Shown here: one piece after another, positions 28,106 through 62,511 of the stretch
Numbering within the stretch: position 1 is the stretch's first letter
How the letters are laid out: every line of letters begins with the position of its first letter
DNA from: Prorocentrum cordatum
Taxonomy: Eukaryota > Sar > Dinophyceae > Prorocentrales > Prorocentraceae
Length of the DNA stretch: 64,000 nucleotides
Assembly (NCBI GenBank): GCA_963575745.1
Contig: CAUYUJ010018712.1
Coordinates: forward strand, 124,001 to 188,000
Direction: 5' to 3'
Made by a program: the position numbers and the translations under genes
The notes under the pieces: generated by a model
The model's input: only the letters and a program-made list of their open reading frames with translations
The model's database searches: none
Told to the model about the DNA's origin: nothing

Positions 28106-28513
28106 ATGACGAGGTGGATGAGGAGGAAGAAGAAGACGAGGAGGGCGGGAGGGAGGAAAGAGGATGACGACAACGGTGGCGACGGCGACGAAGACGGACG
28201 GCCCGGCCGCCCCGACGTCAGACCGAAGACAGCGCGGCGCGAGCAAGGTCGCACCCTCCCCCCCCCCCACGCCCCACCGGGGCCTCAGGAAGGCCGCGCC
28301 GAGGGCTGCGGCGGCTTCCCCCGTCTTTGCCCAGTCCTGGCAGGCAGGGCCTACCCCCCAACTCCATCAGGGGCAGGGGCAGCAGGAGGGGGCGGGGGAG
28401 GATGGTGGAGAAGAGGGAGGAGGAGGAGGAGGAGGAGGAGGAGGAGGAGGAGGAGGAGGAGGAGGAGGAGGAGGAGGAGGAAGACGATGACGACGAGCCA
28501 ACCCATAGCGTAA
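28106..28513. repeat. Purine-rich region with GGA/GAG microsatellite
   Basis: An uninterrupted GGA run occupies about 28418-28482. Flanking sequence is also GA-rich. The poly-Glu, poly-Gly and poly-Ser frames through it are artefacts of the repeat. Confidence 0.9.
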
Positions 28514-28599
28514 AGGCGTAAAGGCGTGAATGAGGAGGAGGAGGAGGAGGAAGAGGAGGGAGAACATGAGGAACCTCTTGGGACCGTTTGCTGTTCCAG

Positions 28600-29460
28600 A
28601 GGGGCCGAGCTACACACAACGACGTGAGGCCACCTCGAGACTGGGCAATGACTCTCAACATGACCACTCGCCGACACATGTTGCACGCCGCCCAACTGGC
28701 GGGATATACACCACTCTGTCCGCCGTTGGGTTCGCCTTGCCCTGCGGAGCCTCGTCAATCGCAAACGCGCATAAGCTGCTGGCAACTTCACGCACGCGCT
28801 GCTCTTGGGCGCGCTTCGGTCCTCCACATGCGTCCGCGCCGAGGGTACAACACTTCTTGCGAATTCTCGACAGATTCTCGGCACCCCTTCGCGGTCCCAA
28901 GTGGTAGATCAATCGCACCGATGACAAAATGTCATGCGCAACTCGGGCCAGAACGCCAGCAACTGCGTGTCATGCACGTGTTCTTCGCCGCTCTGAGCGG
29001 CCGTCACGGGAACAGTGCTTGGGCCGCCTGCGCTGGCCGCCGCCGCCAAGCTGCTGGCGCCAGACACGGTGCACAACATGTCAGAACACTGGGCGGCCGC
29101 GCGAGGCGATGACGATGTCGACATGTCCACCTGCTACCGCACTAGGTCAATGCATTCGCGAACAACTGCGAGGCCAAACTGGCTGGAATGCGAGGCGGCC
29201 TGTGAACTCCAGGCGGGCGACTCTGAACTTGCTGTCGGCCTCGGAAGCTCGCCTGAGCGTATTCCTCGCTCGGAGCAAGACGAGAGCCGCAGTGGCGTCG
29301 ACCTCGTTAACGTCCTATTCGGAATCTAGCAAGTCTGCAACTTTCCAAGAATCCTTCTTGACCATGAGGGGCCCCAACTGGACAGATCCAGCAGCGGGTG
29401 CACTGCAGCAACTGACGCGAGCGGGCCCAGAACGGGCAAGAAACCCAGCTGGTCAGGCAA
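28600..29460 (-). other. Unassigned region with partially open minus-strand frames
   Basis: Minus-strand frames such as VKKDSWKVADLLDSE, a stop, then DVNEVDATAALVLLRAR (about 29364-29250), and AAQSGEEHVHDTQLLAFWPE (about 29000-28945), look more protein-like than their surroundings but do not join into one frame. I recognise no family. It may be a decayed gene copy. Confidence 0.25.
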
Positions 29461-29522
29461 ACGTGCAGTAGAAGTTAACCCGATAATAATTTAGTCTAAG
29501 TAGATCGTCTCAGTGACACAGC

Positions 29523-29615
29523 GACAGAACGAACAGCGAGACGAGACAGAACGAACTGCAACACGAAGAACTGCAGCCTCAGTAATCTGCAAGACAGAAC
29601 GAACAGCGAGACGAG
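29523..29615. repeat. Two copies of a 23-bp direct repeat, 70 bp apart
   Basis: GACAGAACGAACAGCGAGAC plus GAG occurs at 29523-29545 and again at 29593-29615. A shortened third copy (GACAGAACGAACTGC) lies between them. The repeated unit is therefore about 70 bp with an internal half-unit. Confidence 0.9.
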
Positions 29616-30016
29616 TGCGAAGCTCGTCACGAAAATAATTGCGCGGTCCCGTCCATTGGCTCGAGCTTGCTGGCTGCACGTGTTAACCAAGTAACATCCT
29701 AGACCCTGCCCCACCAGCAGGGGCATCAGGCGACCGTCGACAAGAGAGTAAAGGGCAAGCGCGCAGGGCCCCACTCCTACCACTGGATGAGGAGGAGGTG
29801 GGGGAGGTTGAGCGGCTCATCCCCTATAATCCCCATCTTCCTGGCCTGCCGACGCCGGTATTCTTCCCGGCGCTGGGCGATGTGCACGGATCTTTGACGG
29901 ACACCACCCTCTCGGCCATCCGCAAGGCGAGGACACGAGGACCCCGAACGATGGCTCCGCGGGGAGGCAGACCTCCCCATGGCTCCTCCACCAAGTCATT
30001 CCTCTCTTCTTTCAAC

Positions 30017-30480
30017 TTCTTCTCCTCCTCCTCCTCCTCCTCTTCCTCCTCCTCCTCCTCTTCGTCCCCCTCCTCCTCCCCCTCCTCCTCCTCCTCCTCC
30101 TCCTCCTTCCTCCTCCTCCTCCTCATCCTCATCCTGCTCCCCAGTTCCTGTTGCTGCTCCTGCTCCGACTCCTCATCCGCATCCATATCCTTCTCCTGTT
30201 AGGTCTTCTCCCTGATCCATGCTCCGTTTTACCCTGCACCTCCATCCTTGTCATCCTCCCCCCTCCCTGCTCCAATTTTGCCTCCCTCACACACTCCCTC
30301 CTTGTCATCCTCCTCCCTCACTGCTCCAAGTTTACCCTGCACCTCCCTCCTTGTGATCCTCTTGCCTCCATCCTCCCCCCTCCCTGCTCCGATTTTGCCT
30401 CCCTCACACCCCGCCTCCTCCTCCTCCTCGTCCTCTGCCTCCTCCTCCTCCTCTTCTTCTTCGCCCTCCTCTTCCTCATC
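30017..30480. repeat. Pyrimidine-rich TCC/CTC microsatellites and minor repeats
   Basis: CTC/TCC runs lie at about 30017-30130 and 30415-30475. Between them a diverged unit of about 60-70 bp, beginning CCCTCCCTGCTCC and containing TTTTGCCTCCCTCACAC, is repeated at least three times (near 30265, 30310 and 30375). Confidence 0.85.
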
Positions 30481-33452: not shown

Positions 33453-35020
33453 TTAGAACCCGTCTGACGCGCCTCCTGCCCGCAGAGCACTGGGGGGCCC
33501 CGCGAGTCGTCGCTGGCGCCGCGCTCGATGCCCCGGCCTTCGCTCGCGAGCCCTTCTCGGCAGAGGGCCTGGCTGAGGTGCCCTGTCCCGCTGAAGAGCT
33601 CGGCCGCCCTTGCCCGCTCTAGGTCCGGCGCCGCCGCTTTTGACCGTGCACGCCGTCTTCTGCTGCTGCGTCAGCTTCTGTTCCTCTTGATGCAACCTAG
33701 CGCGCGCCTCGCAACGCCTCACCATATTGGACTGCGGAGCCGAGCGCCCCCTGCGGCCGACGTCGATGGAGGCGCGGAAATTGCGGCGCCAGTCGTGGCT
33801 CGGACTCCCGTGGCGCCACTGGCACATGATGTACAGGCGCCACTTGATTTTCGTCTCCACTTGTGCCGTCTTGAAATAGCTGACGACGGTGCGCGGCGAC
33901 GCCTTGGACGGCGGGGTCTCGGGGTCTCCAGTCTGCAGCATCTGTAGAGGCCTCTTAGATGGGGTCGGAGTAAATGGGGTCGGAAGATCGCGCCGCATCG
34001 CCGATGCATCGGCCATGCATCGGCGATGCGTCGGTGATGAACCGGCGATGCATCGCCGACGTCGGCGATGCACCACCGACGTCGACGGGGAGCAAAGCGG
34101 GCTCCACATCGAGCCGCATCGGCGATGCATCGGCGACGCGCCACGATCCCCCGACCCCATCTACTCTGGCCCCATCTAGGAGGCCTAGAGTCTGCGACGC
34201 GGGCCCCAAACGCGCGGCGTCCGCGCTGTCAAGGAGGAGAGAGTCGCCGACAGAGTCCGCCGTGGAGGTCCCCTGGCGTTCGGATGGGCGCGCGTTGAGC
34301 GCGCAGAAGGGGGGCGACCCCCCCGGCGCGACCAGGTCGCTCTTGCGGATCTTGGCGGGCCGGCGCGGCCTGAGGTAACCGAAAACGGCGAGCGCCATCC
34401 ACTGGGCGGCGCCCGCGCTGCTGGCGCGCATGGCGCGCAGCGCGACGGCGGCGGGTTCGAACTTGGACCGTCCGCGGAACGCTCGGAGGAGACGCGGCAG
34501 CTTGCCCTAGCCCCTGGACCACATCGCGTTGGGAAACAGAAAACTCGCAGGGCCCATGTCTTCGTCGCGGCCCGAGTTCGCGCGGGCCGCGAGCAGAGCG
34601 TCTGCAAGGACGACCGCAAAGTGCGTCATGCGTTTCGACTTCGCGAACTTCACGATGCGCTGATATCGCCTAGCGTAATCCTCGACGGTGGCCAAGGGCA
34701 GCGAGTTCGCCTCCAGGAAGCTGGCGCCCTGCTCAAGCGCCCCCGGGCGGTCCTGCGCGAAATCGCAAAAACGTGCCTCCACGCGTGGAGACCTCGACTG
34801 ATCGGCGGAGCTTGTTGTCTGACCGATCGATAAAGAAACCATCGAACCATCGCCGCAGCCGGCCTCTTCTCGGCCCAAAAACTCGAGGCCTTGCGCGCGT
34901 CGGGCGGAGTCTAGGCCGCCCCGAAGTGAGCGAGGTGCCAAAACAAGAGAAAAAGGCAGGGCCTTGGGCCCCCATGACCTCGAGACGAAATCGGCTGAGT
35001 TGAGCTCGGGATGAGATCCA
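33453..35020 (-). pseudogene. Tyrosine recombinase of element G, interrupted by a MITE
   Basis: The N-terminal core-binding part reads GASFLEANSLPLATVEDYAR (about 34728-34669). The frame has one TAG at 34507-34509 and then continues unbroken with GKLPRLLRAFRGRSKF and MALAVFGYLRPRRPAKI, where the Arg of YLRP is the first catalytic residue. After GPASQTL the MITE intervenes; after it the frame resumes with QMLQTGDPETPPSK. GSPSHDWRRNFRASID and VGRRGR correspond to the H-x-x-R box region. The nucleophile region is MVRRCEARARL, where Tyr is expected in R-R-Y-E; it is Cys (TGC). Without the TAG and the MITE the gene would be one frame of about 500 codons. Confidence 0.66.
33950..34185. mobile_element. 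236-bp MITE-like element with about 75-bp TIRs and TAGA(G) target duplication
   Basis: The left end GCCTCTTAGATGGGGTCGG and the right end (reverse complement) GCCTCCTAGATGGGGCCAG start imperfect inverted repeats that remain alignable for about 75 bp. The ends are flanked by TAGAG at 33945-33949 and 34186-34190. Because the ends are GGCC-palindromic, the duplication can be read as TAGA or TAGAG. The interior is made of palindromic CGATGCATCG blocks. Removing the element with one duplication copy deletes 241 bp and brings the two halves of the recombinase gene into the same frame, which strongly supports a transposition event. No coding capacity. Confidence 0.87.
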
Positions 35021-44396: not shown

Positions 44397-44740
44397 GACA
44401 ACGCAGGTCTTCGCAAACCCGGGTCGGCCAATGTGCGCGGCCGCCTCGCGGCCATGAGCTGCTCGCTAACCCTGGTCAGCCAGAGGGGGTCTTCGCAGGA
44501 TCCTGCAGGATCTGGCGCCCCGCCTGTCCCCCGTTTGCCGAGGGCGGGCGCCTATGATGTTTCGGGGCCGCGCTGTCAGCAGCGAGGGCCGCCCGATCCA
44601 CGACGCGCGGGCGGTGGGCGCGCACCCCCCCCCCGAAGAATTTCACCCGCCGGCCCTCCAGCCCCGACGTTGGCAACTGGTGCGCCTGTCGCTGCGGCGG
44701 GCTGCGCGGCGCCCCGCGTGCCTCGGCAAAAATTCTCCAC
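44397..44740 (+). repeat. 340-bp direct repeat, left copy (contains start of A-family RT)
   Basis: Begins GACAACGCAGGTCTTCGCAA and ends GGCAAAAATTCT. It is nearly identical to 55247-55586, with a few substitutions and small indels by eye. Its second half encodes GRAVSSEGRPIHDARAVGAH and FHPPALQPRRWQLVRLSLRR, matching the RT start of element A. It ends 12 bases before the left TIR of the helicase element. Confidence 0.93.
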
Positions 44741-44752
44741 GCGTCGCGTATC

Positions 44753-45157
44753 CCCACCAGCCCATCCCCAAACAGCAACTCCAGCGAAGCATGCCGACAG
44801 TCGTGTTTTTCAAGCGTATTTCTGCCTGCTCTCGCATATATACCCTGTTCCTACGTCCTCCTGCCGCCTTGCACATCCACCTAGTGGGGGGAGCGGGGGG
44901 AGGGCGAGTCCGAGGAGGAGGAGGGAGAGAAGGTGTTGGGAAGGAAGACAGAGGGCGGTCGTCGTCGTTTCACACACGTGAACGAGTCAGACGACTCAAA
45001 TGACGGCGACGCCTCAGACGATGACGGCGACGACCACGACGACGACGACGACGACGACGACGATTACGATGACAACGACGACGTCGGCGACGACGACGCA
45101 GGCGACGACGACGACGACGATCCAGCGTTCTCCCCCGACCAGTTGTGCAGTGAGCGT
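44753..45157. repeat. Left terminal inverted repeat (405 bp)
   Basis: Aligns with the reverse complement of 53208-53595 along its whole length. Examples are CCCACCAGCCCATCC..AAACAGCAACTCC at the outer end, CACGTGAACGAGTCAGACGA in the middle and CCAGTTGTGCAGTGAGCGT at the inner end. Differences are scattered substitutions plus a longer ACG run here. The inner-end word CGACCAGTTGTGCAGTGAG recurs once more at 45245-45263, outside the TIR. Confidence 0.94.
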
Positions 45158-45262
45158 AACTCGGCACGGATGGGCAGGTCTCCCTCTGAACGCGTAGTTC
45201 GGAGAGTGGCAGTGAGCTTAGCTCCGCCCATCCAGCAACCTGCCCGACCAGTTGTGCAGTGA
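44933..45262 (+). CDS. Acidic ORF in left TIR
   Basis: The frame reads EGGRRRFTHVNESDDSNDGD, then a long Asp-rich run from the ACG repeat, then DDPAFSPDQLCSER. The same frame and words (HVNESDDSHDGDVSDDDGDD, DDPAISPDQLCSER) occur in the right TIR. Conservation of frame in both copies is expected from TIR identity alone, so coding is not proven. If translated it would be a short, highly acidic protein. Confidence 0.3.
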   Translation: MLGRKTEGGRRRFTHVNESDDSNDGDASDDDGDDHDDDDDDDDDYDDNDDVGDDDAGDDDDDDPAFSPDQLCSERNSARMGRSPSERVVRRVAVSLAPPIQQPARPVVQ

Positions 45263-45289
45263 GATCTAGAGACCGCCAGCGGGCTACAC

Positions 45290-45600
45290 CACAGCACACC
45301 AAACGACACCACAACACACCACACCACACCACACCACACCACACCACACCACACCACGGCACGCCACGCCACGCCACGCCACGCCACTCCACGCCACTCG
45401 ACCCATACCAGCACGATCAGTAAACGCGACAGGAATCAGAAAAGGAACCAAGAAGCAGCAAAGGCGAGATCGGAGGAATCAGCAAAGGAGAGATTTCAGG
45501 AACAACACCGCACTGCACCGCACTAGACCACCCCGCACCAACACCACACCACACCGCACCACACCGCACCACACCGCACCGCACCACACTAGACACCACT
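45290..45600. repeat. Degenerate CCACA/CACGC pentanucleotide arrays
   Basis: CCACACCACA-type units fill about 45290-45355, change to CCACGCCACG units to 45400, and return as CACACCGCAC at about 45535-45600. The Val/Cys/Gly-rich minus-strand frames through them are artefacts. Confidence 0.92.
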
Positions 45601-45797
45601 GCTCACCACTACAAACCTCTACACACGACACCACACAACATCAGACGACGACACTTCAGCCCTAGAGGCCCCCAGGGCTCGCCACGAGGTCACCAAGGCT
45701 CTCAGGAGAGGCCCAAGTCTATATTTCCGCCAGCGTTGTCGTCGCTGTTGCCATTCTGGTTCACAGTGTTGCAGTGTGGCTGTGAGCTTAGCTCCGC

Positions 45798-45837
45798 CTA
45801 CCAGCAATCGCTTCCGTCTACCAGCAATCGCTTCCGT
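45798..45837 (+). repeat. 20-bp perfect tandem repeat immediately upstream of the helicase ATG
   Basis: CTACCAGCAATCGCTTCCGT occurs twice in tandem, ending four bases before ATG at 45842. The preceding words GCAGTGAGCTTAGCTCCGCC (near 45210) and GCTGTGAGCTTAGCTCCGCC (near 45780) are also a repeated pair. The position suits a leader or binding-site array; no function is known. Confidence 0.85.
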
Positions 45838-45841
45838 AGTC

Positions 45842-48800
45842 ATGGAGAAGCGCCCGTACGCTCTGGTAACCTTGCTAGCCACGGGGGCTCCTTGGAGCGA
45901 GCAGCGCGAGGGCACGTCCTTCGACGAGTTCATGCGGGACACGTTTGGAGCATCGATCGATGGTGGCGGTCCGTCGCAAAGCCAAGATTTGGAATTTAGC
46001 TGCGCGCATCCGTCTCGGAACGGGTCGAATAGCTTGCTGAAAGGTCCTGCCGCATGCCGGTTTCCAGATGCGCGAGAGACTCCGCGCGTCATTCTTGCAG
46101 TGCGTGGCGCATGGTTACCGTCTGGCGAGGCTGACGTCATCCACAGTACGTTGCCCGGCAAGTCAGTCTGGAAGTTTTGGGTGGCTGTGCGTGCCGATGA
46201 GGAGGTGGTCATTGCCTCTCCTTTTGGCAACGACCGGTCGTCGCCGTACCGGCGTCGCCCAGCAGACATCGCGGATTGCCTGCCGCCAGAGCTACTCGGG
46301 CGAATAAAACGGAACGCCCTGCAAGCAATAGACTACGCGGAGCAGGCCATCGCGAACAAGAAAGGTCAAAGTTCTAAGAGGCAGAGGGGGGATGGCAGCG
46401 GTGAGCTGAACTGCATGAGGAAACTCGTCGCTCAGTTGGGCACGAAGGAGCTGCCTCCTCCGGAGCGCCGCAGCACTGCCTGGAAAGCTTGCGGTGACAC
46501 GGTGTTTGCGCCGGCGGATATCGTGGCTCGGGGGTGCAGTTGCGGCCGCCTGGAGAAGTTCGCCGTGCACATGTCCGTCGACTGCCGCGGCTGAGGGCCC
46601 AGCAACGTGGCTCGCAAGACCACGTTCAACGTAGAGGCAGAGGTCGCGCCATCGCTGCTGCATGCGGCGAAGGGCAAGCTGCTGTGCGAACTGCGGGCGG
46701 GGTCTGTTCGCAACGAAGATGTGGTGCGTCTGAAGGTTCACGAGGACAACCTCGGTTGTGCTTCCATCGTGTGCAACATGCACACGTTCACTGACAGGGG
46801 TGCCCGTTGGCGCGTTGACTCCGACGGCGACTTCGCAACCGACAAGCACCGCATGCTGTGTATGATAAGTACGCGCGTACTGTCGAACATAGGCATCCAG
46901 GGCAATGCGCTTAGCGCAGCCCATCGAGATATTCGCACTGCTAGACCGCGCGCTAGCCCAGATAGCCTCGAAGCGGCGTACCAGAGCGGAGCGCTCCATG
47001 TCGCAACGGCCGCGCCGAGGAAAGATTACGCTACTCGCATCACTCTGGAGCCAGAGGTGCACGCAGATGGAGAGTATCTCGGCGTTATCCTTGAATGGGT
47101 TGGCAACCGAGTATACCAGCACGCCGCCCTTGTTCGCAGCGCTACTGCGGAGAATACTCTTGGGCTCGGCGCTCTGCGGTCTGCCTTTTCCACAGCGCAG
47201 CCTTGGCGTGGACCGCCAGTCGCAGTCGGAAATGTGCTGAGAAATAGAGTCTCTCCATCGTCTGACTTCATCCAGACGGTATTGCGCAGGCGCGGCATTC
47301 AGCTGTCGGACGATCAGAAGCGATGCATGGAGATCATCAACGCGTCGGACAATCATCACTTGGTCATACAGGCTTTTGCAGGTACTGGAAAGTCGCTACT
47401 TTTAGCTTTGCTGGTCGAGGCAGCGTTGGCCGACGTGGGCACACGGAATGGCGCAGGGGTGATCGTGACTCCTTCGCGTAATCTGCGTGACTCCATATTA
47501 CAAGGTCCGGATTTCCTAGGCAACGTGTTCGTGGCGGATGATTACGGGCCCCGAGTTGTTTGGCTTGGGCGACCTTCAGATGCTCCCGGGGCGTTGAGCA
47601 CATGGGAGAATAAGGTTGCGGACTTGGTGCAAGAACGGCTGCGCCCTCTGCGCGCAGAGGTGGAAGAGCTGGAAGCTTCGGTTCTACGCCCTGCTTTTCA
47701 GCGTATCTTGGAGTTCAGCATCTCCTGGAATGAGCTGCCAGCGGCCTCTGTTGTCGTGGTCGAGGGCGCTGTGTTCGCGGCGCTGGAGGAGTTCCGCGGC
47801 CATGCTCGCCAGCACATGCTACAAATCTTTGCCATCGAACGGCGAAGGGCGGAGCACTGGGACGACGTCATCACAGAAGGCACCAACGGTTATCGCATTG
47901 TTTCAAGAATGGATTCTTTCGTCAAGTGGCGGGCGGGAGGCATTCAAGGATGCATGAACCGTTTGTTGGATCGCCTGGAGATCAGCCTGTTCTGCATGGA
48001 GGAGTTTGAGTCCTACGACGTTTCCCAGGTGGTAGCTGCCTTGGCGAACGTGTCTGTAAAGACATTGCTCATGGTGGGGGACCAGCATCAGAGAGTGGAG
48101 AATGTCGGTCGCCGGCGTTCGCGCACCACCTTCAGCTCCGACAGCGCCGTCGGCGCGCTGCCCTTCGCTCCGCGCGGCCTGGAAGGTGATGGCGAGGATT
48201 GCACCGCGATGGCAGTGAGCGAAGCTCAGCCCACGCCGTCTGCTCTGACAGGAAGCGCTGCCATCCCTGAGGCCCGTCCGCGGTGCGAATGGTGCCGAGA
48301 CGCCGAGAATGCATTCCTCGACGTTTGCAAAAGGTGCGGCAAGGACGTCTGCAACTACGTGGCGCAGTGCTTTGATTTCGCGAGCACTTTTGCTTCTGAC
48401 TCGGCTGTCGCTCGTAATACCGCATTGCAGCACGTATTCTACGACGGCGACCAATGGTACAGGAGTCCACTGCGGGGCGGTGATGAAGTCGGTTGGCGCC
48501 CTCTCTTGTTCGAATGTCTATGCCACGCTGTTGCCGCAGATTTGTGCGAGTACAGGAGTCGCCAGCGGGAGTGGAAAGGTTTTCCACGACCAACGGTGCT
48601 GATCATCATGCCTTTGAGCCGGTCAGCAATCCCGCTGTGCTGCTTGATGCAAGCTGCTTTCGATGACACAAGTCTGGGCTCAGGGGTCGTGCAAGCGTCG
48701 CTCGCTTTGAATGTGAGGGGGGAGAGCGTCCCTATAGTGCACTGCGTGCGGCATCGTCGCACTGTGGGTGATCAGGGCAAAAACGCTGGGACGCAGAGGA

Positions 48801-50107
48801 ACTTGAACCAAGAGTACATCAACTTGACGCGCGGGGTGGTGAAGACTTGCATGTGGGTAGAATTACAACCGTTCGGGCATCCAGCAATGCCGCGCGACGC
48901 GCGCCATGAGTATGTCGGCGGTGGGTCCAAGGACGAGTTTTGCCCCGCCTACGCGAAGCGCAGGAACAGGCACATCTGGGACTACGAGCTTCCGCGGGGC
49001 ATTCTCGCGGACCGCCAGAATATACAAGCGTCGTATCACGACTGCTTTGAGCGTAGGCTTCGAGATGATGCTGCTCGTCGTGTACATGACATCGCTGATG
49101 AGGTGTGGTGGAAGCTGCATCGGAACCAGATTCCAAACTTGCCGACCCTCGGCCAGGGATGCAGCGACTACAAATCCTTCGATGATGTCCTAGCGCAAGC
49201 AGCCGGCGCAGGCACCTCTCTGTCGCGATTCGTGCACGAGTCCACCAGGTCGCTTCGGGATTTGGGTCATGGAGCGGCAGCCGAGCGATGGGACGTGCAG
49301 GAGATGCACGACAAGGTGAGCCGCGATGTGGACTTGTTGGATTGGATGCCAGGCATGAAGTTCGGCCATTTGTTGCAGCCGTGCGCCACCGCAGAGGTGA
49401 GCTCCGAAGCAGGCAAAGGCGTGACGCGCCTCTGCTTCCCATTCCTTCATGCTCACGCGGGTCTGGAGGTCGAGAGCGCTATAACAGCACTCTGCAGCCT
49501 GGCCTGGTTTCTGTCGTTCGTGCTGGAGAAGGAACTCGTGTCGGATGTGCGTGTGAGCAGAGAACTGCATAAAATGCGGGTCATACAAGAAGACGGGGAC
49601 CTTTGGTTCAATAAGGCCTGCCAGTCCGGACGCATAGCCACAGCCATCAAGGACAAGGGCAAGAGCGTAGTCTACATGTATGTTGGCGGAGGGGCAGTGG
49701 ACCACGAGCAGTCTTACCTCTTGGGCGGCATCGTAGTAATCTGCAAGAGCTGGATGTGGGCGGCTTTGGTCTACTCCGCGGTGAGAATTGCGGGCCTCGC
49801 GTGCAACAACTCGATAGGCTCCTTGGACTCCGCGTTGGTGATCTGCGACGAGACCGAGACAAGCGAGTCTACAACTGAACCCACAGCTGCGACGCAATCA
49901 CCCGTTCTTGACTTCCACAAGCTCACTGAGGAGACGTGGCTTCGTGTTGGTTCATTGTGTGACGTGGTTATGTCCGATGTCGAGGCGCCGCAGCGCACTG
50001 GAAGAGACGCGAGGTCCACCCAGTCCGACAAGGTAGGCATCCAGTTCGCATCTCTGAAAGAAGTGTATGCTGCAGACGTGAAGCGCTTGCTCAGCGGGGG
50101 CGATTAG
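45842..50107 (+). CDS. SF1-helicase-like protein, one in-frame TGA
   Basis: From ATG 45842 the frame runs to TAG 50107, with a single TGA at 46592-46594; four codons later it is open again (next GTG 46607). Without the TGA it is about 1420 residues. Helicase-like features are LSDDQKRCMEII (Q-motif-like), AFAGTGKS (Walker A, 47372-47395), FCMEEFESYD (motif II, Glu-Glu for Asp-Glu, about 47990-48020), LLMVGDQHQRVE (motif III, about 48065-48100) and INLTRG (motif VI-like, about 48818-48835). A CxxC-x10-CxxC zinc-binding pattern (CEWC...CKRC) lies at 48286-48337 between motifs III and VI. The last 350 residues match nothing I know. ATP-dependent DNA or RNA unwinding is inferred; its role in moving the element is unknown. 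Confidence 0.68.
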
Positions 50108-50420
50108 ACTCCAAGTCTGTCTGCTACGGAAGTGGCCGAAGCAGAGAGCGTCGTCGGTGCGTAGCAGTGATAATCGGTGGAGGACGCCGACGACGACGAC
50201 GTTGAAGACGTCGAAGGCGACGACGACGACCACGACCGCGACGACGACGACGACGATGACCGCTCGACGACGACGACGACGATGACGACGACGACGACGA
50301 CGACGACGCCGACGCGGACGACGACGACGACGACGACACGACGACGACGACGTCGAGACAACGACGACGACGACGACAAAGACGACGTCAACGGCGACGC
50401 CGACGACGCCGACGACGCGA
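50107..50420. repeat. ACG/GAC trinucleotide array
   Basis: Interrupted ACG triplets fill about 50181-50420. They give Asp-, Thr- or Arg-rich peptides in different frames, so N-terminal extensions through this stretch are not counted as protein. Confidence 0.92.
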
Positions 50421-50506
50421 CGGCGACGGCAGGGGGGGGCGCTCCTCGGAGCCTCTTCACTCTGGAGAGCGAGCGGAACGCACGCGCCCATCGTGGTTTT
50501 GGCACG

Positions 50507-51331
50507 ATGTGGCCGGTTCGTGCACGCCGTGACCCCCCTCCTCGCAGCCGCTCCGAGGATCGTCCACGCCCCCAGGAGGTGAAGCCCGACATCGATGACG
50601 TGCTTACTCGCGAACTAGACCTATGGAAGGCGGATCCTAACCCCTGGAACTTCTGGGAGTGGCGCTCTAAGACTGGGCGTTCGAAAGCGGCTTGCGCATC
50701 CCGTACCTCTGCACCTGCTGGTGCCAGGAGCTCCCCTCCTCGGAGGCCCCGAAGCACCAGCGTACCTCGGAGACGCATCCAGAGCAGGGCGCGCAGTCGT
50801 AGCCGCAGCAAGAGCATCCCAAGGGTGCGTGGATATCCGCCGCCGAGTCGCCCCCGTTCCAGTACGCACACGATGTACCCAGACAAGCCCGATGAGCGCC
50901 TCAGCAACACCAAGAGCGCGACGAGACGTGAGCAGGAAGCTCGGACGGTCCACCGTCGCCAGGCTCTTGGCGAAATCTCCGAGGCCACCACCGAGCGGGC
51001 TAGTGACGTCGTTGGCGCGCAGCCCCAGAGGGGTAGCCGCCCGCCACCCGCACCTGGTCCTGCACCTACTATGCAGGAGATTCACGCCAAGATAACGGCG
51101 CGCCACGCGTTTCTGGACGCCCGTATTAACTTGTTGGAGGAACAATTAAAAGAAGCCCGTGCGTTGAGTTCCGAACTCCGCGATGCCCACGCGGCAGCAG
51201 CGGTCGAGGAAGCTCGCGCGGTCAGCTCTTCGGACTCCCCTGTCCCCGTCCGCCGCCAGAAGCCGCAGCTGAAGACAGCGGCCACCAAGGACAGCACCAA
51301 GAAGAAGGGGAAGGCTAAGGGCAAGCGTTAA
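50507..51331 (+). CDS. Basic Ser/Arg-rich protein with C-terminal coiled coil
   Basis: I take ATG 50507 as start because the frame upstream is microsatellite-derived; it is open from 50177. It begins MWPVRARRDPPPRSRSED and has a central segment ELDLWKADPNPWNFWEWRSK with several aromatics. An RSRARSRSRSKS stretch is followed by a likely coiled coil, HAFLDARINLLEEQLKEARA. The end is Lys-rich (KKKGKAKGKR). Nuclear localisation and nucleic-acid binding are plausible. I do not recognise a family. It lies 400 bases after the helicase gene on the same strand. Confidence 0.5.
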   Translation: MWPVRARRDPPPRSRSEDRPRPQEVKPDIDDVLTRELDLWKADPNPWNFWEWRSKTGRSKAACASRTSAPAGARSSPPRRPRSTSVPRRRIQSRARSRSRSKSIPRVRGYPPPSRPRSSTHTMYPDKPDERLSNTKSATRREQEARTVHRRQALGEISEATTERASDVVGAQPQRGSRPPPAPGPAPTMQEIHAKITARHAFLDARINLLEEQLKEARALSSELRDAHAAAAVEEARAVSSSDSPVPVRRQKPQLKTAATKDSTKKKGKAKGKR

Positions 51332-51363
51332 CTCCGCCGTCTGCTGACGACGCGTACTTCCGT

Positions 51364-51747
51364 GTGCCGCCTATTGTGGGTTCTACGGAATCAACTGTAC
51401 TGACTGGAGTGCCGCCCGCGGTGGTCGCCGCTATTGTCTCTTATTCTTGGTGCTTGCTGGGTTCCGTGGGGTTTCAGGCATTGGGCTCAGATGGTGCATG
51501 GTCTTTCCTCCAGTACTCTCTAGTGCAATACTTACCACTATGGTTTTTACGCTGCTATACCGTTGGGTTCTTTGGTGCTGGATGCTTTACTGGCGACGCT
51601 ATCTCTGGGTACAGTGAGGCTGGACACTGGATGTTGCCTCAATGGGTTCGGTGGTTCCTGTATACATGGCTTGGGCTTCGGTATCTATCCAATGGTGGAT
51701 GTGCCTTTACTCAGCTTCAGTGGCGCTTCAGGTGGGCTCTACTCTAG
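51364..51747 (+). CDS. Hydrophobic Trp/Leu-rich ORF, copy 1
   Basis: Reads YSWCLLGSVGFQALGSDGAW, YLPLWFLRCYTVGFFGAGCF and WVRWFLYTWLGLRYL. About 85% of these residues recur in copy 2 at 52165-52491. The DNA is TGGTGCTGG/CTTGGGT-rich, so two or three frames are open and hydrophobic. The coding nature is uncertain. If made, it would be a small membrane protein. Confidence 0.3.
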   Translation: MPPIVGSTESTVLTGVPPAVVAAIVSYSWCLLGSVGFQALGSDGAWSFLQYSLVQYLPLWFLRCYTVGFFGAGCFTGDAISGYSEAGHWMLPQWVRWFLYTWLGLRYLSNGGCAFTQLQWRFRWALL

Positions 51748-52082
51748 GAAACATCCCGCTGGTGGGACTTGTATTTCACTTTGGCTGGAGCCCGTACTTG
51801 GGTTCTCTGGTGCTGGTTACTCTACTCTGTGATGGTGCTGGTTACCCTGCTCAGGTGATGGTGCTGGTTACTCTACTCAGTGATGGTTCATTGGTGGGAT
51901 TACCTTTGGATACACCGCTCAATCAGTAATGAGTGGTATCGCTACTTGGGAGCTCAGGCAGTTTTATCCTTGGGTGTGGCCGCTACTTGGGTTCAGTGGA
52001 TTCGTTCGGTGCCCTCCTCCTGGTGTGAGTCGTTCGAGTCCCCCCTCCTGGTATGAAGCGTTCGGGCCCCTCCCCGTTGTCT

Positions 52083-52112
52083 GAGTCGTTCGGCGAGGGG
52101 CCCGAACGACTC
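52083..52112. repeat. Perfect 11-bp inverted repeat (hairpin) within an array of GAGTCGTTCGG words
   Basis: GAGTCGTTCGG, an 8-base spacer GCGAGGGG-like, then CCGAACGACTC. Further direct or inverted copies lie at about 52026, 52056, 52126, 52777, 52810, 52836 and 52890. Such clusters can be protein-binding arrays or origins; no function is shown. Confidence 0.85.
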
Positions 52113-52164
52113 ACACAAGGAAGGGCCCGAACGACTCGCACCAGGGCGAGGGGCCCGGCCCGAG

Positions 52165-52491
52165 GTGGTCGCCGTTATGGTCTATTATTCTTGGTGCTTG
52201 CTGGGTTCCGTGGGGTGTCAGGCATTGGGCTCAGATGGTGTATGGTCTCTCCTCCAGTACTGGCTGGTTCAATACTTACCACTATGGTTTTTACGCTGCT
52301 ATACCGTTGGGTTCTGTGGTGCTGGATGCTTTACTGGCGACAATACCTCTGGGTACAATGAGGCTGGACACTGGATGTTGCCTCAATGGGTTCGGTGGTT
52401 CCTGTATACATGGCTTGGGCTTCGGTATCTATCCAGTGGTGGATGTGCCTCTACTCAGCTTCAGTGGCGCTTCAGGCGGGCTCTCGTATAG
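52165..52491 (+). CDS. Hydrophobic Trp/Leu-rich ORF, copy 2
   Basis: Counterpart of the ORF in unit 1, with the same length of homologous frame: YSWCLLGSVGCQALGSDGVW, YLPLWFLRCYTVGFCGAGCF, WVRWFLYTWLGLRYLSSGG. The frame stays open in both units in spite of substitutions, which is weak evidence for coding. Confidence 0.3.
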   Translation: MVAVMVYYSWCLLGSVGCQALGSDGVWSLLQYWLVQYLPLWFLRCYTVGFCGAGCFTGDNTSGYNEAGHWMLPQWVRWFLYTWLGLRYLSSGGCASTQLQWRFRRALV

Positions 52492-53171
52492 GAAACATCC
52501 CGCTGGTGGGACTTGTATCTCAATCTGGCTGGAGCCCGTACTTAGGTTGTCTGGTGCTGGTTACTGTACTCTGTGATGGTGCCGGTTACCCTGCTCAGGT
52601 GATGGTGCTGGTTACTCTACTCAGTGATGGTTCATTGGTGGGATTACCTTTTGATACAACGCTCAATCAGTAATGGGTGGTATCGCTACTTGGCTACACT
52701 GGGAGCTCAGGCAGTTTCATCCTTGGGTGTGGCCGCTACCAGGGTTCAGTGGATTCGTTCGGTGCCCTCCTCCTGGTGTGAGTCGTTCGGGCCCCCCCTC
52801 CTGGCATGAATCGTTCGGGCCCCTCCTCGACGTGCGAGTCGTTCGGCGAGGGGCCCGAGCGACTCACGCCAGGGCGAGGGGCCCCAACGACTCACACCAC
52901 CTCTATTCTTGTCCAGGACTTGCACACTCTGAGTGCCGTGATTCTACCCTTGCCTAACGGAAGTCCTCAGATCTGTTCGAGGGGGCCGATCATGGAGGCG
53001 AGTTTCCCCTTCTGCTCCTCTTCCTCCTCTCCCTCCTAACCTGCCGCCTGCTGCCTGCGCCCATCTTGATTGGCGAGCCTGCCTCTCGGGTTCAGCTCAC
53101 GCGAGCCTGAGCAGGGCGCTGACTTGTGCCCCGTGGGCCCCGAGCAAAGCAAATAAAAAAAGGTTGACGGT

Positions 53172-53462
53172 TTACCGCCAGCGCCCAGATGCAGCCAGTT
53201 CCGCGGGACGCTCACTGCACAACTGGTCGGGAGAGATCGCTGGATCGTCGACGTCGTCGTCCATTGAATCGTCGTCGTCGAAGTCGTCGTCGTCATCGTA
53301 ATCGTCGTCGTCGTCGTCGCCGTCATCGTCTGAGACGTCGCCGTCATGTGAGTCGTCTGACTCGTTCACGTGTATGACTCGACGACGACCGCCCTCTGTC
53401 TTGCCTCCCATCGCCTTCTCTCCCTCCTCCTCCTCCGACTCGCCCTCCATCCGCCCCCCCAC
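53172..53462 (-). CDS. Acidic ORF in right TIR
   Basis: Mirror of the left TIR ORF: EEEEGEKAMGGKTEGGRRRV, IHVNESDDSHDGD, Asp-rich run, DPAISPDQLCSER. It extends further upstream than the left copy (MGGRMEGES), where the left TIR has a stop or shift. Confidence 0.3.
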   Translation of the reverse strand: MGGRMEGESEEEEGEKAMGGKTEGGRRRVIHVNESDDSHDGDVSDDDGDDDDDDYDDDDDFDDDDSMDDDVDDPAISPDQLCSERPAELAASGRWR

Positions 53463-53595
53463 AAGGGGGATGTAGAAGGTGGCAGGAGGAAGAAGGAACC
53501 GGTGATATATGCGAGGGCAGGCGGAAACACGCCTGAAAAAAACACGACGGTCGGCATGCTTCGCAGGAGTTGCTGTTTAGAGATGGGCTGGTGGG
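53208..53595. repeat. Right terminal inverted repeat (388 bp)
   Basis: See left TIR. The outer boundary is CTGGTGGG at 53588-53595; the next bases, CTTCGTCAG, do not match the left flank. About 40 bases beyond it the AGT array begins. Confidence 0.94.
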
Positions 53596-53619
53596 CTTCG
53601 TCAGAAAGTAGCAGCAGGA

Positions 53620-53728
53620 GCAGTAGTACTAGATTGTGGCAGTACTAGTAGAAGAAGAAGAAGTAGTAGTAGTAGTAGGAGTCGTAGCAATAGTAGTAGA
53701 AGTAGTAGTAGTAATAGTAGTAGTAGTG

Positions 53729-53761
<33 letters not shown>

Positions 53762-53762
53762 C

Positions 53763-53795
<33 letters not shown>

Positions 53796-53891
53796 GACGA
53801 GGACTAGTAGTAGTCGTAGTGATGGTAGTAGTAGTAGCAGAAGAAGTAGTAGTAGTAGGAGTAGTAGTAGTAGTAGTAGTAGTAGAAATCA

Positions 53892-53923
<32 letters not shown>

Positions 53924-54184
53924 TCATTAGTAGTAGCCGTAGTAGTAGTAGTAGTAGTAGTAGATGAAGTAGTAGTATTTATAGTAGTAGTAGTACTAGT
54001 AGTAGTAGTAGTAGTAGTAGTACTAGAAGCAGTAGTAGTAATAGCACTAGCAGTAGCAGTAGCAGTAGCAGTAGCAGTAGCCGTCGTAGTAGAATTAGTA
54101 GTGGTAGGTAGTAGTAGTACTAGCAGTAGTAGCAGTAGTAGCAGTAGTAGTAGTCGTAGTAGTAGTAGCAGTACCAGTAGTAGC

Positions 54185-54224
<40 letters not shown>

Positions 54225-54333
54225 TTACCAGTATCAGCGGTAGTCGCAAACGTAGTCGTCAACGTCGTCGTCGTAGTAGTTGTCTCAGCAGCAGTAGCAG
54301 TCACCATAGCAATGGTCTTTATGGAAGTAGTAA

Positions 54334-54376
<43 letters not shown>

Positions 54377-54465
54377 CATCGTAGTAGTAGTAGTAGTAGT
54401 AGTGGTAGTAGTAGTAGTAGTAGTAGTAGCCGTAGCACCATGAATAGAAGTAGTAGTACTAGATT

Positions 54466-54500
<35 letters not shown>

Positions 54501-54519
54501 CTAGCAGTAGTAGTCGTAC

Positions 54520-54555
<36 letters not shown>

Positions 54556-54733
54556 CAATAGTAGTGGTGGTAGTCTTAGTAGTAGTAGTGGTAGTAGTCG
54601 TGGTAGTAACAGTAATAGGACTAGTAGTAATAATAGAAGTAGTAGTCCTAGTACTAGCAGCAGCAGTAGTAGTAGTCCCAGTAGTACTAGTAGCAGTAGT
54701 ACTAGTAGCAGTGGTAGTGGTAGTAATAGTAGC

Positions 54734-54764
<31 letters not shown>

Positions 54765-54857
54765 CTAGTAGAAGCAGTAGTAGTTGTAGTAGTAGTAGTA
54801 GATGATGTAGTAGTAGTAGTAACAGTAGTAGTAGTAGTAGTAGTAGTAGTAGTCGTC

Positions 54858-54893
<36 letters not shown>

Positions 54894-55077
54894 CTAGTAG
54901 TACTATTAGCAGTCGTAGTAACAACACTACTAGTAGCAGTGGCACTAGCAGTAGCAGTAGCAATAGCAGTAGCCGTCGTAGTAGAATTAGTAGTGGTAGT
55001 AGTAGTAGAGCAGAAGTAGCAGTAGTGGTCGTAGACGAAGAAGAAGTGGCAGTAGTAGGAGTGAGAGTAGTAGTAGC

Positions 55078-55109
<32 letters not shown>

Positions 55110-55150
55110 CAGTAGCAGTAGCAGTAGCAGTAGCGGTAGAAGTATGAGTA
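53620..55150. repeat. AGT trinucleotide array, about 1.5 kb
   Basis: Almost continuous AGT/TAG triplets with CAG, CGT and AAT substitutions. Uninterrupted blocks reach more than 15 units. The 389-codon Ser/Val frame and the opposite Thr/Leu frames are artefacts. Confidence 0.98.
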
Positions 55151-55246
55151 GTTGTTGGCGTTGTAGTAGGAGTCGTGGTGGTAGCGGTGGGAGTAGCGAT
55201 AGAAGTCGTAGTCGTTGTCGTTGTCGCAGTGCTTATATCTATAAAC

Positions 55247-55586
55247 ACGACAACGCAGGTCTTCGCAAACCCGGGTCGGCCAATGTGCGCGGCCGCCTCG
55301 CGGCCACGAGCTGCTCGCTAACCCTGGTCAGCCAGAGGGGGTCTTCGCAGGATCCCGCAGAATCCGGCGCCCCGCCTGACCCCCGTTTGCCGAGGGCGGG
55401 CGCCTATGATGTTTCCGGGCCGCGCTGTCAGCAGCGAGGGCCGCCCGATCCACGACGCGCGGGCGGTGGGCGCGCACTCCCCCGAAGAATTTCACCCGCC
55501 GGCCCTCCAGCCCCGACGTTGGCAACTGGTGCGCCTGTCGCTGCGGCGGGCTGCGCGGCGCCCCGCGTTCCTCGGCAAAAATTCTA
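55247..55586 (+). repeat. 340-bp direct repeat, right copy
   Basis: Begins CGACAACGCAGGTCTTCGCA and ends GGCAAAAATTCT, at the same bases as the copy at 44397-44740. Its second half carries the same RT-start sequence (GRAVSSEGRPIHDARAVGAH). Both copies lie in the same orientation and bracket the helicase element plus the AGT array. Confidence 0.93.
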
Positions 55587-57899: not shown

Positions 57900-60704
57900 T
57901 TAGCGCGGGGCACCAGGCGGAGCGCCGCGGAGCGATGACAGCATAGCTTGGAGGGTGAGTGGCGGCGCAGCACCATCGGGCGAGGGCGTAAGCAGCTCGG
58001 CGAAGGCACGCCCGGCGCGGTGGAGGCGCTGGAGCAGAGGGCCTTGACGGGCTTGAGCAGCGGCAAGGTCGGCGGCGAGAGCAGCACACCTCTGCTGAAG
58101 AGCGGCCATAGACTGGGACAGCTCTGTTTCGCGGTCGGTGAGGGGCGGCTGCTTAGTGCCTGCGGCCGCGGGCCTCGTGGCAGGGACGAGGTCATCGGTG
58201 CGCCTGGCCAGGTGGTGGACCAGCGCAGTGCGGCGATCCGTGTGCTGGCGGCCGTCGCCCTTGAGAGGCGACTGGAGGGTAACACGCGGTCCCAGGGCTG
58301 GAGCCGCTAGGGCCACGCCCCGTGAGGACGGAAGAGCCGCATCCTCGCACCCAGCAACAGTGAAAGCGTGGACGGGGTGCGACGGCCTGACTGGCTCGGT
58401 GCCCTGCGGGGGGGCTGGAGCCGCCCCCGCGGGCTGGCGCTGGTGGGGGGACGGAGTGGGTGGCACGGTGGGACCAATCATGATGCCGTGCGAGGGCTCG
58501 GAGGTCGGCCGCGTGGTCGGGTGGCGTCTCGATGGGGCGGCAACGTCGGCAGCGTGGGGTGTCGGCGGGGCGTCGTCTATGCTGCCACTCAGTCCGAGGG
58601 GATCATGCAGGTCCTCGTCGGCGTCTTGACGGTGAGCGACATCATCATGTGGGTGCGATGTCGCTCTCGGTGGCGGAGTCGCGGTGGGCGTCGAGAGGTT
58701 GCCCGACGGGGCAGGGTTGGCGCTGGCTGGGCCGTCGTCCAAGAAGTCCAATCCCCCGCCGAAGCCGAACGGGTCGTCCTCCTGTTCATCGAGCATCGCC
58801 CGTTGGGCCTCGGCCCAGAGCTCATCCGGGTCTTGCGGGATGAATGGTCCAGCCGCGGGTGGTGCCTGGTCCGACAGCAGGGGGTTCGGTTCCATTTTGC
58901 TGAGTTCCGCTGCTGTAAACCCAGCCCTGCGGTGTGGGAGCGGCAGAGTACGGTGTCTGCGCTCGTAGATAGCGACAGCGACCCCATGAAGCACGGTCGC
59001 TTGGCGATGTCGTGTTTTGGCAGCTTCAACAATGTCGTCAGGAAGGTTGTGCGTGCGTGCCGCCGCTGTGGCAAGGGCGTCGGCCTAACGGTTGAACTCC
59101 TCCGCGATGGGCCCGATGAGCCCAAGGTCGATGCCCAGGTCTCCCAGGTGGCTGGCGATTTTTTCGACGCGAAACATGTTGGGCTTGGCCATAACACATC
59201 GGTGGATCTTTTCCCAGAGCTCCGCGTGCGTGCCCTGCGGCGCTGGATGTCCGTCGATGATGCTTTGGAACCCATCGACCACCGCCTGGTTGTCCACGAA
59301 AACGTGCACGGGCCGTTCGGCACATGCCGTAAGGTGGACAATGGCGAGGGTCTCCGCAACCTGGGCGTTCTGCGTTAGGCCGTGAACGCGTGCACTGTAG
59401 TTCATGCGGTGGTCGATGCCGTAGTAGACGCCGTAGCCCGCTCGTGCTAGCAATGGGATGGCTTGGTTGGTGCACGCACCGTCCGTGGCAGCGTAGACCC
59501 ATGTCCAACCAGTGTCGTAGTCAAGGTAGGTGGTGTAGGTGTCCTGGGCTGAAGCCGCAGGATCTCCCTCAGGGGGGGGCCGCGGTATGGGCTGTGGCAG
59601 CGGGTCCCTCGCGAGGTCGGCCTGCAGGTCGAGGAGGGCTGGGTCTTCGTCGAAGAGCCCGCAGTGTCTTGTGTGCGGCGGAAGACGGGCCCACTGGTCG
59701 TCACTGATGAGGGTGGTGAGAGGGAGTCTTTCTCGGGCCAAGCACTTGCAGTCGCGGACAGTGTGCTCCTGGGTTTCCTCTTCCTCGTCGCAGTAGCGGC
59801 AGATGGGGCTGGGGTCTGCCGACGTGTTTGATCGGGATCGTCGCTGTTGGGTGTGATCCCCGCCCGACAGGTAGTTCAGCAGGAGCGCCAGCTGCCAGGC
59901 AGTGCATTTGGCTGCTCCTTTAGTTCGGGCGAGCCACGTGCTGGCGAAGAGATCAAGGCCCTGTCTGACAGAGGCTAGGTAGCCAAGGTCGTGTCGCCGT
60001 GGCTTGATCCTCCGCAGAAATGCCCTGCGTTGTGAGGCCCGCAGCATGTGCAGGAAGGCGTTTTGGGGTAAATTCAGCCAGCTGATCGGGCAGCCCCAGT
60101 CGTCGTACATGATGCCAAATGTGGGCCAGGTCCATCGGAGCTGCTGGAGCGACTGGACGAGTCGTCCGACGGGTCCTCCACCAAACAGGGTCTGGACGTG
60201 GTGTTGGAGGTCTCTGGCGAGCCCGCAGAGTGTAACGTCGCGGTTAACCTGTCGCCGCAGGCACAGGAATGCTTCACGCTGCGTGATGGCGTCGATCTCA
60301 AGGGCGTGTCCCGGCACGCACACGGCCATGAGAGTCCAGAACTCGACCCACTTGTTCCCCTTGGGGCGGATAGCCGCCTTGAGGGCGTGGTTGTAGGCAG
60401 TCTTGGCTGGGCCTGATGGTGCTTGAATGTCGGTGCCCGTGGTGCAGACGCTGGCAGCCAGGGAACGGGCGTGCCGCGCCTTGATAAGCATCGGCGATGG
60501 GAGCTTGCCAATGCGCGGCAGGCGGATAGTCGCCCTCCGTACACGGGCGTCTGCGGTGGCCGTGAGGTTAAGCGCGGCTGGAGCCGGCGCTGCCTCTGCG
60601 TTGATGTAACTCCCGACGAGCTTGAAGGAATCGACCACACGTAGGGGGCGATCCGCCAGTGTGAGCTGGGTACGGCGGCGTGAAGCTCGTCGGTGAGCGC
60701 CCAC
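57900..60704 (-). pseudogene. LINE C-terminal part: RT thumb, CCHC knuckle, RNase H and Pro-rich tail, one in-frame TAG
   Basis: The frame continues the RT after the shift near 60675 (TLADRPLRVVDSFKLVGSYI). A knuckle CRYCDEEEETQEHTVRDC (C-x2-C-x8-H-x4-C, about 59812-59759) follows. RNase H begins YAATDGACTNQAIPLLARAG (about 59493) and has QVAETLAIVHLTA (Glu) and VHVFVDNQAVVDG (Asp). At the end motif the frame reads EEFNR, then TAG at 59085-59087, then ADALATAAARTHNLPDDIVE, so the stop falls inside N-x-x-A-D-x-L-A. After the stop the frame stays open for 390 codons, including a Pro/Thr/His-rich region and a likely coiled coil near the end (about 58130-58000). Confidence 0.85.
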
Positions 60705-62511
60705 CCTGCCACTTTACCAGGGTGAATGCGTTGACCTGAGAATCGATCAAACTTGGCGGTTTCGTCGAGAGATTTCTGCAGCTCAGAAGCGGTGTGGGTA
60801 GTGGAGTTGCTGTCGTCCACAAAGGTAGTGCTGAGTGATCGAGGCACGTATCGGTGCTGCCTCTTTGTCCACACGCACATGAGCAGCTTGATGTCGTCCA
60901 GGGACCACGAGCTGCCCTGGAGGTGACCGTTAGTCCTGGCCAGGTCCTTAGAGTACGCTCCGTTCATGCGGATGTAGCGTTTGTGGTGTCTGTAGAAATT
61001 TCGGCGGACAGTAACGATGTCTTGAGGGCACCCCGCGTGCAGCGCAAGGTTAAGACAGATGTCCGTGATGAGGTAGTCGAAGCACTTCTGTCGGTCAAGG
61101 GCAGCTCCAGCTAAGGGGAGGAGTAAAGCCCTGGCGTGCTCGATGCGCAGGGCGAGAGAGGTGCTGACATCCCCAATGGTGGCTTTGGGAACAGCGCCGA
61201 AGCTCGTGGCATGGGTCCATCCTTGCCGCCAGGTCGTGAGGCTACGGTAGGCTGGCGCTTCCCACGCGTACATCCATACGGAAAGAACCGAGAGAAGTCG
61301 TTGGTCCGTCGGGAGTTCCCCTCGGCCTTTTCGGAGGCACGGGTTTGGCACGTGCAGGAGGGGCTCGGGGATGGTGCCAGTGCGTTGCATAGCACGTAAG
61401 ACGCTGGCGAAGAGGCGAAGGATGTCGTCGGGTAACTCCTTTGCCTCCTTGGTCGTCCAGCCGTCGAGTCCCCCCGCGCGGCGCGGTGAACGGGTGCGAA
61501 TGAAGTGGATGAGTTGGTCGTCGGTAAGGTGGAAGGGGGCTGCTGGTGATGGCGTAGGCAGCTCTTGGCGGTATTCGTCGTAGAAGTCCGCCCACGTCGG
61601 CATAGCTTCGGCGTCATGGCCCGCGCGAGCGCGGTACCTGCCCAAGATGGGCTCCCAGGTGTCGACCATGAGCTTAAGCATGTCTTTGGTGTTGGCAACA
61701 ATAGCGTTGGCGGGGAGGGCGTCGGGAACCTGGGCAGGTGGTGGGCCACGAGTGTGGCCGTCGTCGTTGTCCGTGTCGAGCGAACTACCGTCGCTGGGGC
61801 TGAAGCCGCCGGCGTCGGTGTCGGCATCACTATCGTCCGTGCTAGCTTGGTCAGGGTTGAAGGCGGTGGTGTCGCAGTGGAGCTGTGCATCGTCGGGAGT
61901 GGTAGGCGTGCGGAGATACGCCGTGGGCGAGCAGTCGGCAGCCCGTGCGTATATGGCCGCCTTTCGCCCGCTTGGCTCGCGGACACCCTCAGCCCAGATC
62001 TTGATGCGTTCAGCTTTGGCTCGGTTTGCACGTCGCGCCAGCTCTGAGTCTAGGTTTTGGATCAGACGGTCAGGTGCTCTCCGCGTGGTGCTGGCACGTC
62101 GGGGGTCCAGGCATCGGGAAAGGCCAGGAGGGCCGTGGGGCGCAGCTTGTGGCAGAGAAGGCGGGCCGCGGTCCACGTGCAGTCGATGCGCTGCGCCAGG
62201 TACGGCGGGATAGCACGGCAGTCGATATGATGGTGCTGTCCGATGAAGCGAAGCTCGCAAAGTTGCCGATGGAGCTTGCGAAGGCGGTTCATGTGAATCG
62301 TGGAAGCTCCGTAGGTGGGAAAGGCGCGGGGGACGGCGGGTCGCTCCTCGAACGTGGGTGTGAGCCCGTGCATGGTAGGGGCCTTCTTTTTTGGGTGGTC
62401 TGGCGGTGGAGGCGGCAGGTCGCGCAGCCGGGTGAGATGGTACTCATGGCTGGCCTCGTTTGCCAGGGCGAACATGCGTTCCACATCGTCGCGTGTGTCA
62501 GCCTGCTCCAT
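60074..62511 (-). pseudogene. LINE linker and reverse transcriptase
   Basis: The linker frame 62511-62070 (YLAQRIDCTWTAARLLCHKL) passes with a shift into the RT frame. RT motifs are SPRRAGGLDGWTTKEAKELP (RT motif 0-1 region), LDRQKCFDYL (motif A, about 61100-61074), NGHLQGSSWSLDD (motif B, about 60933-60895) and STTFVDDSNS (motif C, Asp-Asp at about 60820-60814). All catalytic Asp residues are present. The first 60 codons from 62260 are out-of-frame. The frame leaves the RT near 60675. Confidence 0.88.

Follow-up and report, generated by a model that had tools for sequence, protein, structure and literature searches.

Superfamily 1 helicase-like frame between long inverted repeats

The DNA analyzed here is a 64,000-nucleotide stretch of the genome of the dinoflagellate Prorocentrum cordatum (hereafter the window, the positions of which are used throughout), in which an 8.8-kb unit (44753-53595) is bounded by terminal inverted repeats (TIRs) of about 400 bases that align end to end. 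Within this unit lies one large coding frame, related to superfamily 1 (SF1) helicases (Table 1). An earlier prediction, made before any database search, had proposed an 8.84-kb unit with 400-bp TIRs, and both arms were found where it had placed them. With the right arm taken as its reverse complement, BLAST aligned the arms at 84.8% identity across 407 columns, with 41 substitutions in 386 aligned bases (10.6%, or about 5% per arm) and three gaps. The alignment score was 516, compared with at most 32 for 117 random pairs from the same window—those left usable of 200 window-pair draws, after exclusion of 83 that started at 44.0-55.5 kb or had starts less than 1 kb apart—ruling out the TIRs as a product of chance or of simple sequence. 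A GAC microsatellite is present in both arms. Outside it, the outer 240 columns retain 23-29 identities per 30-column block (77-97%), and the outer ends are sharp; columns 271-300 of the inner part, within the microsatellite, show only 12 identities of 30, owing to an 18-base gap. Overall, the 8.8-kb TIR-bounded unit is confirmed as real.

For the 20-bp motif listed in Table 1, the window contains three occurrences where 0.03 would be expected, and all three fall inside the unit. No target-site duplication of more than one base was seen by eye at 44752/53596, the bases abutting the two ends being GTATC on the left and CTTCG on the right. A 340-bp direct repeat (44397-44736 and 55249-55585, 96.8% identical) lies outside both the element and the AGT microsatellite to its right, with its left copy 16 bases from the element; a third, weaker partial copy (about 70%) was located at 4349-4519 on the reverse strand. 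The 340-bp repeat does not look like the element's own target-site duplication, since between the right TIR and the right copy there are 1.65 kb of DNA, most of it microsatellite.

Table 1. Positions of features of the TIR-bounded unit in the window.
Feature	Position	Strand	Remarks
Left TIR	44753..45157	+	405 bp; first letters CCCACCAGCCCATC
20-bp motif CCGACCAGTTGTGCAGTGAG	45135..45154	+	Near inner end of left TIR; exact copies at 45244-45263 (+) and 53211-53230 (-)
Large coding frame	45842..50107	+	1421 codons with one in-frame TGA
N-terminal C-x-C...C cluster	46535..46585	+	Residues 232-248; Cys in 6/6 members covering it, intervening His in 5/6
In-frame TGA	46592..46594	+	Codon 251; leucine in 5/5 relatives covering the position
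Walker A, AGTGK[ST]	47378..47395	+	7/7 members
Motif II region, [MLT]-E-x-[FY]-E-[SA]	47996..48013	+	Walker-B Asp absent in 7/7, Glu kept in 7/7
Motif III, GDxxQR	48077..48094	+	7/7 members
Cys-rich stretch, read as zinc insert	48275..48370	+	CxxC in 5/6 members covering it
Motif VI, NLTRG	48821..48835	+	5/6 rows reaching the region (P0008 out of frame here)
Second possible ORF (putative)	50177..51331	+	384 aa; Asp/Thr-rich repeat at the start, then an Arg/Ser-rich middle and a Lys-rich tail
Two tandem copies of a ~740-bp unit	51414..52899		51414-52143 and 52158-52899; 91.6% identical
Right TIR	53208..53595	-	388 bp

The large coding frame and its protein family

The large frame consists of two open reading frames (ORFs) in the same frame, split by a single TGA that the original prediction of one large gene had overlooked; the rest of the 1421 codons is open. 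Relatives of the encoded protein numbered five in a first search of 5.8 billion proteins and six overall after a second, at 41-57% identity; in both searches, scoring was limited to the 7,999 candidates with the most words in common. These relatives come from 'ena' records and are known as protein sequences alone; pairwise identity among the family members is 44-72%, and two of the relatives, P0004 and P0007, represent 11 and 8 member sequences, respectively. The longest contigs from which P0004, P0006, and P0007 derive measure 5,085, 7,813, and 14,234 bases, respectively, and residues invariant in the family include D49, E51, H56, and K67. Two full-length relatives, P0004 and P0006, are helicase-core proteins of about 1,410 aa, to which the window frame aligns over 1421 columns at 55.4% and 45.8% identity, respectively. 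This full-length match of an open frame indicates that no intron interrupts it. Furthermore, leucine stands at the position of the TGA in every relative covering it, so the codon is a nonsense codon in the present copy, which is therefore damaged and has probably lost its autonomy. Several relatives also look like decayed or partial copies: P0007 carries internal deletions, P0005 starts inside the protein, and P0008 and P0009 appear to lose the frame close to the C terminus. Such broken and partial relatives resemble a repeat family with decaying copies.

The scarcity of stop codons bears on the history of the gene. If the arms were identical at insertion and then diverged neutrally, a neutral frame at 5% divergence would be expected to acquire about six stops, compared with the one seen, and one or fewer was obtained with a simulated probability of 0.010-0.012 (500 runs per setting); at 3% divergence the corresponding probability was 0.07-0.11. 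This is a modest test, in which even mutation is assumed and gene conversion is ignored, and its outcome favours continued selection on the protein during the divergence of the arms: either the gene was still selected over that period, or the present copy itself stayed under selection.

The helicase-like character of the gene, and the Walker A, GDxxQ, and LTRG-like blocks on which the original prediction had based it, held up across the family. Walker A, motif III, and motif VI of SF1 are all present, and motif Ia (TPSRNLRD) is found in six of the seven members, with a variant in P0007; the Asp-Glu pair of motif II is lacking, its Asp being absent from all seven. The zinc-binding insert predicted between motifs III and VI fared less evenly, in that a Cys-rich stretch does lie there, but its CxxC is not kept by every member. 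At E<=1, the Pfam families matched by the seven members were seven in number and all P-loop nucleoside triphosphatase (NTPase)/helicase models, with AAA_19 in 7/7 members (best E 1.2e-5) and AAA_30 in 6/7 (best E 6.6e-6); in every table showing cut-offs (P0001, P0008, and P0009) the scores lay below them. The precomputed database domains are PF13245 on P0005 and PF13604 on P0008, and in PHROGs the window protein matches a Dda-like helicase (E 9.5e-6). The PIF1 model was matched by one member of seven only (E 0.24), NCBIfam gave no match, and a sequence search of solved structures reached a best E of just 0.15. Matches in PADLOC (best mad8, E 1.3e-4, on P0006) fall on parts of the helicase core and were not counted as evidence for a defence function.

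The predicted structure of the protein is poor (predicted local distance difference test score, pLDDT, 37.6) and weakly matches Upf1-like helicases. In Foldseek, the top two rows for this low-confidence model were senataxin and a spliceosome chain, presumably Aquarius (probabilities 0.99 and 0.98). Alignments of more than 200 residues occurred in just three of the 50 VIA rows, namely those of SETX, ZNFX1, and a spliceosome chain; the other 47 all fall within the long helices at model residues 312-458 and were disregarded as unspecific. The motor is interpreted as a divergent SF1 helicase, probably of the Upf1-like SF1B type. Even on a modest reading, the result is a protein family without a Pfam match outside its P-loop core.

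Other content of the unit and its surroundings

All 27 ORFs of at least 100 aa overlapping the unit were scanned with Pfam. Among the families shown, which for an antisense microsatellite ORF were the best 25 of its 30 weak ones, no transposase, integrase, polymerase, or capsid model was found; specifically, no model of a DDE/D, tyrosine, or serine transposase was matched at E<=1 by any of the seven family members or by the 27 ORFs, in agreement with the earlier claim that the unit has no recognisable transposase. The second possible ORF has sub-threshold matches only, to Mucin (E 0.0097, over its Thr-rich repeat) and ExsD_M (E 0.44), and the tandem unit has neither a long frame nor a Pfam match. 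Weak matches in three ORFs, each of which contains the GAC microsatellite, were read as low-complexity artefacts: 44933-45262 on the forward strand (Nop14, E 0.13; CDC45, E 0.6), and, on the reverse strand, 49952-50491 (30 families, best 7tm_1 at E 2.7e-5, below cut-off) and 50104-50991 (nine weak families, best E 0.015). No RNA family reached its gathering threshold, no tRNA was detected, and no relic of the dinoflagellate spliced leader was found in the window with up to three mismatches allowed. A prokaryotic or phage origin was rejected, as no relatives were confirmed in collections of viral contigs, genome contigs, phages, and plasmids; the TIR end pattern is likewise absent from the viral contigs, and the left TIR has no match to the phages.

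A degenerate AGT-repeat array of 1.6 kb (53616-55230) lies directly to the right of the element. Elsewhere in the window, a 2,670-codon ORF on the reverse strand (3631-11643) has no Pfam match and five relatives of 1,724-4,033 aa, which include Cladocopium goreaui and Symbiodinium microadriaticum proteins, in keeping with a dinoflagellate host, one relative being called a xerD-like integrase/recombinase; it probably encodes a retroelement polyprotein. A remnant resembling a long interspersed nuclear element (59085-62443, reverse strand) comprises two ORFs with matches to reverse transcriptase (E 0.024), zf-RVT (E 0.02), and RNase H (E 1.9e-5), all below cut-off. A palindromic element of 239 bp (33948-34186) resembles a miniature inverted-repeat transposable element, its arms of about 71 bp (85%) each opening with AGGCCTC. 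In addition, an imperfect inverted repeat at 28366-30142, with arms of about 120 nt some 1.5 kb apart that align in many registers, is probably low-complexity sequence.

Interpretation and comparison with known systems

We tentatively favour the interpretation, which we hold at a little short of an even chance, that the unit is one copy of an undescribed, multi-copy family of TIR-bounded mobile elements of dinoflagellates, in which the large protein is probably the mobility protein. The bolder form of this proposal—a new class of eukaryotic TIR element for which a single protein of about 1,410 aa suffices, with a novel nuclease in its N- or C-terminal part and a degenerate Upf1-like motor that peels away the element between its long TIRs—is possible, though doubtful. 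The mechanism that we infer for the mobile family combines a nuclease with peeling. The SF1 motor would lie between an N-terminal part of about 480 aa and a C-terminal part of about 400 aa; the protein would bind the long TIRs or the 20-bp subterminal repeats, and a nuclease hidden in one of the flanking parts would nick the element ends. The motor would then unwind the element, which would be peeled off or copied and inserted elsewhere, with an insertion that would leave no target duplication, or one of at most 1 bp.

Such a mobile family has to be weighed against three other explanations. In the first, which is rather unlikely, the helicase gene would be cargo or an accessory gene in a non-autonomous TIR element, and the transposase that moves this element would be encoded at another place in the genome. 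Non-autonomous elements commonly have long TIRs and internal repeats, the tandem repeats look like passenger DNA, and no transposase domain was recognised in either the family or the ORFs of the unit, but the conservation of the protein over its whole length exceeds what passive cargo would need, and the unit showed no second conserved gene. In the second, the unit would be an integrated replicon resembling a linear plasmid or a virus, either transpoviron-like or a stripped-down polinton-like virus (PLV), which would use an SF1 helicase for its own replication and rely on the host or a helper virus for a polymerase. The size, the TIR length, and an SF1 helicase as the main gene do resemble transpovirons (PMC8877843), and SF1 helicases have been described in Tlr1 and in the Oxyrrhis marina PLV (OmPLV; PMC3671162; PMC12721341); however, neither the family nor the 27 ORFs matched a capsid, packaging-ATPase, polymerase, or zinc-ribbon model, and the viral contigs and phages yielded no relatives, which makes such a replicon unlikely. 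That the unit is not mobile at all, being a host gene within a locally duplicated, inverted segment, is suggested by the repeat-rich surroundings, with the 340-bp direct repeat (97%) on either side and the microsatellite, but is very improbable given the sharp outer TIR ends, a frame without introns, and relatives (44-72% identity) that include apparently broken copies, the pattern of a repeat family.

Dinoflagellate genomes are described as rich in transposable elements, and the introners within them have been read as non-autonomous DNA transposons (PMC10666404). If confirmed, the favoured interpretation would add a way of moving eukaryotic DNA, based on a helicase-core protein and long TIRs, would supply a concrete candidate mover protein for dinoflagellate genomes, and would connect motors of a cellular, Upf1-like type with selfish DNA. 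If, in addition, the protein were self-sufficient, the element might be a candidate for the autonomous counterpart of non-autonomous elements with TIRs, the introners of dinoflagellates among them.

With respect to established groups, the unit has the long, sharp-ended TIRs of class II transposons and lacks a recognised transposase. Like Helitrons and Helentrons, it would be helicase-bearing eukaryotic mobile DNA. Helitrons carry a HUH Rep domain and a Pif1-like motor and have no long TIRs, and they were excluded here by the long TIRs and by the lack of any Rep/HUH model at E<=1. Polintons were excluded as well, no protein-primed PolB, capsid, or packaging ATPase having been matched by the seven members or by the 27 ORFs. 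The misfit to Helitrons and Maverick-type elements noted in the original prediction is thus borne out, but its choice of comparators was too narrow, as SF1 helicases combined with TIRs are already described for transpovirons, Tlr1-type elements, and the dinoflagellate OmPLV (PMC3671162; PMC8877843; PMC12721341). Among the matches listed in the literature covered—titles and the beginnings of abstracts, with most subscription papers and Repbase outside this scope—there was no TIR element with an SF1 helicase as its sole large gene.

The motor itself can be compared with senataxin, ZNFX1, and Aquarius: the model weakly matches their fold along some 220-246 residues and has long helices that separate motif Ia from motif II. 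These Upf1-like SF1B proteins are cellular helicases whose DExxQ motif II is intact, unlike the present family, in which the Asp of this motif is absent from all seven members.

At the level of the whole element, transpovirons, the linear plasmids of mimiviruses, share with the unit a similar size class (6.4 to about 7 kb, compared with 8.8 kb here), TIRs, and a core SF1 helicase (PMC3671162; PMC8877843). One transpoviron is described as 6,365 bp long with 77-nt TIRs, those of others exceeding 300 nt (PMC8877843). Unlike the unit, transpovirons are described as having six to eight genes, one of which encodes a zinc-ribbon protein, and a transposase-like protein is present in two of their clades; they are also tied to giant viruses, and their helicase falls in a mostly bacterial and phage branch together with that of Tlr1, a comparison made by description only. 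Tlr1 of Tetrahymena and OmPLV of Oxyrrhis marina resemble the unit in having alveolate hosts and a large protein that contains an SF1 core; the protein of OmPLV, an element that also has TIRs, is about 1,500 aa long (PMC12721341). As described there, however, the Tlr1 and OmPLV proteins fuse a protein-primed PolB (pPolB) to the helicase, in elements with capsid genes, whereas no PolB model was matched at E<=1 here. Overall, transpovirons, Tlr1, and OmPLV appear, from their published descriptions, to be the nearest described arrangements (PMC3671162; PMC8877843; PMC12721341), and by its anatomy the unit works like a TIR element with a large protein of its own.
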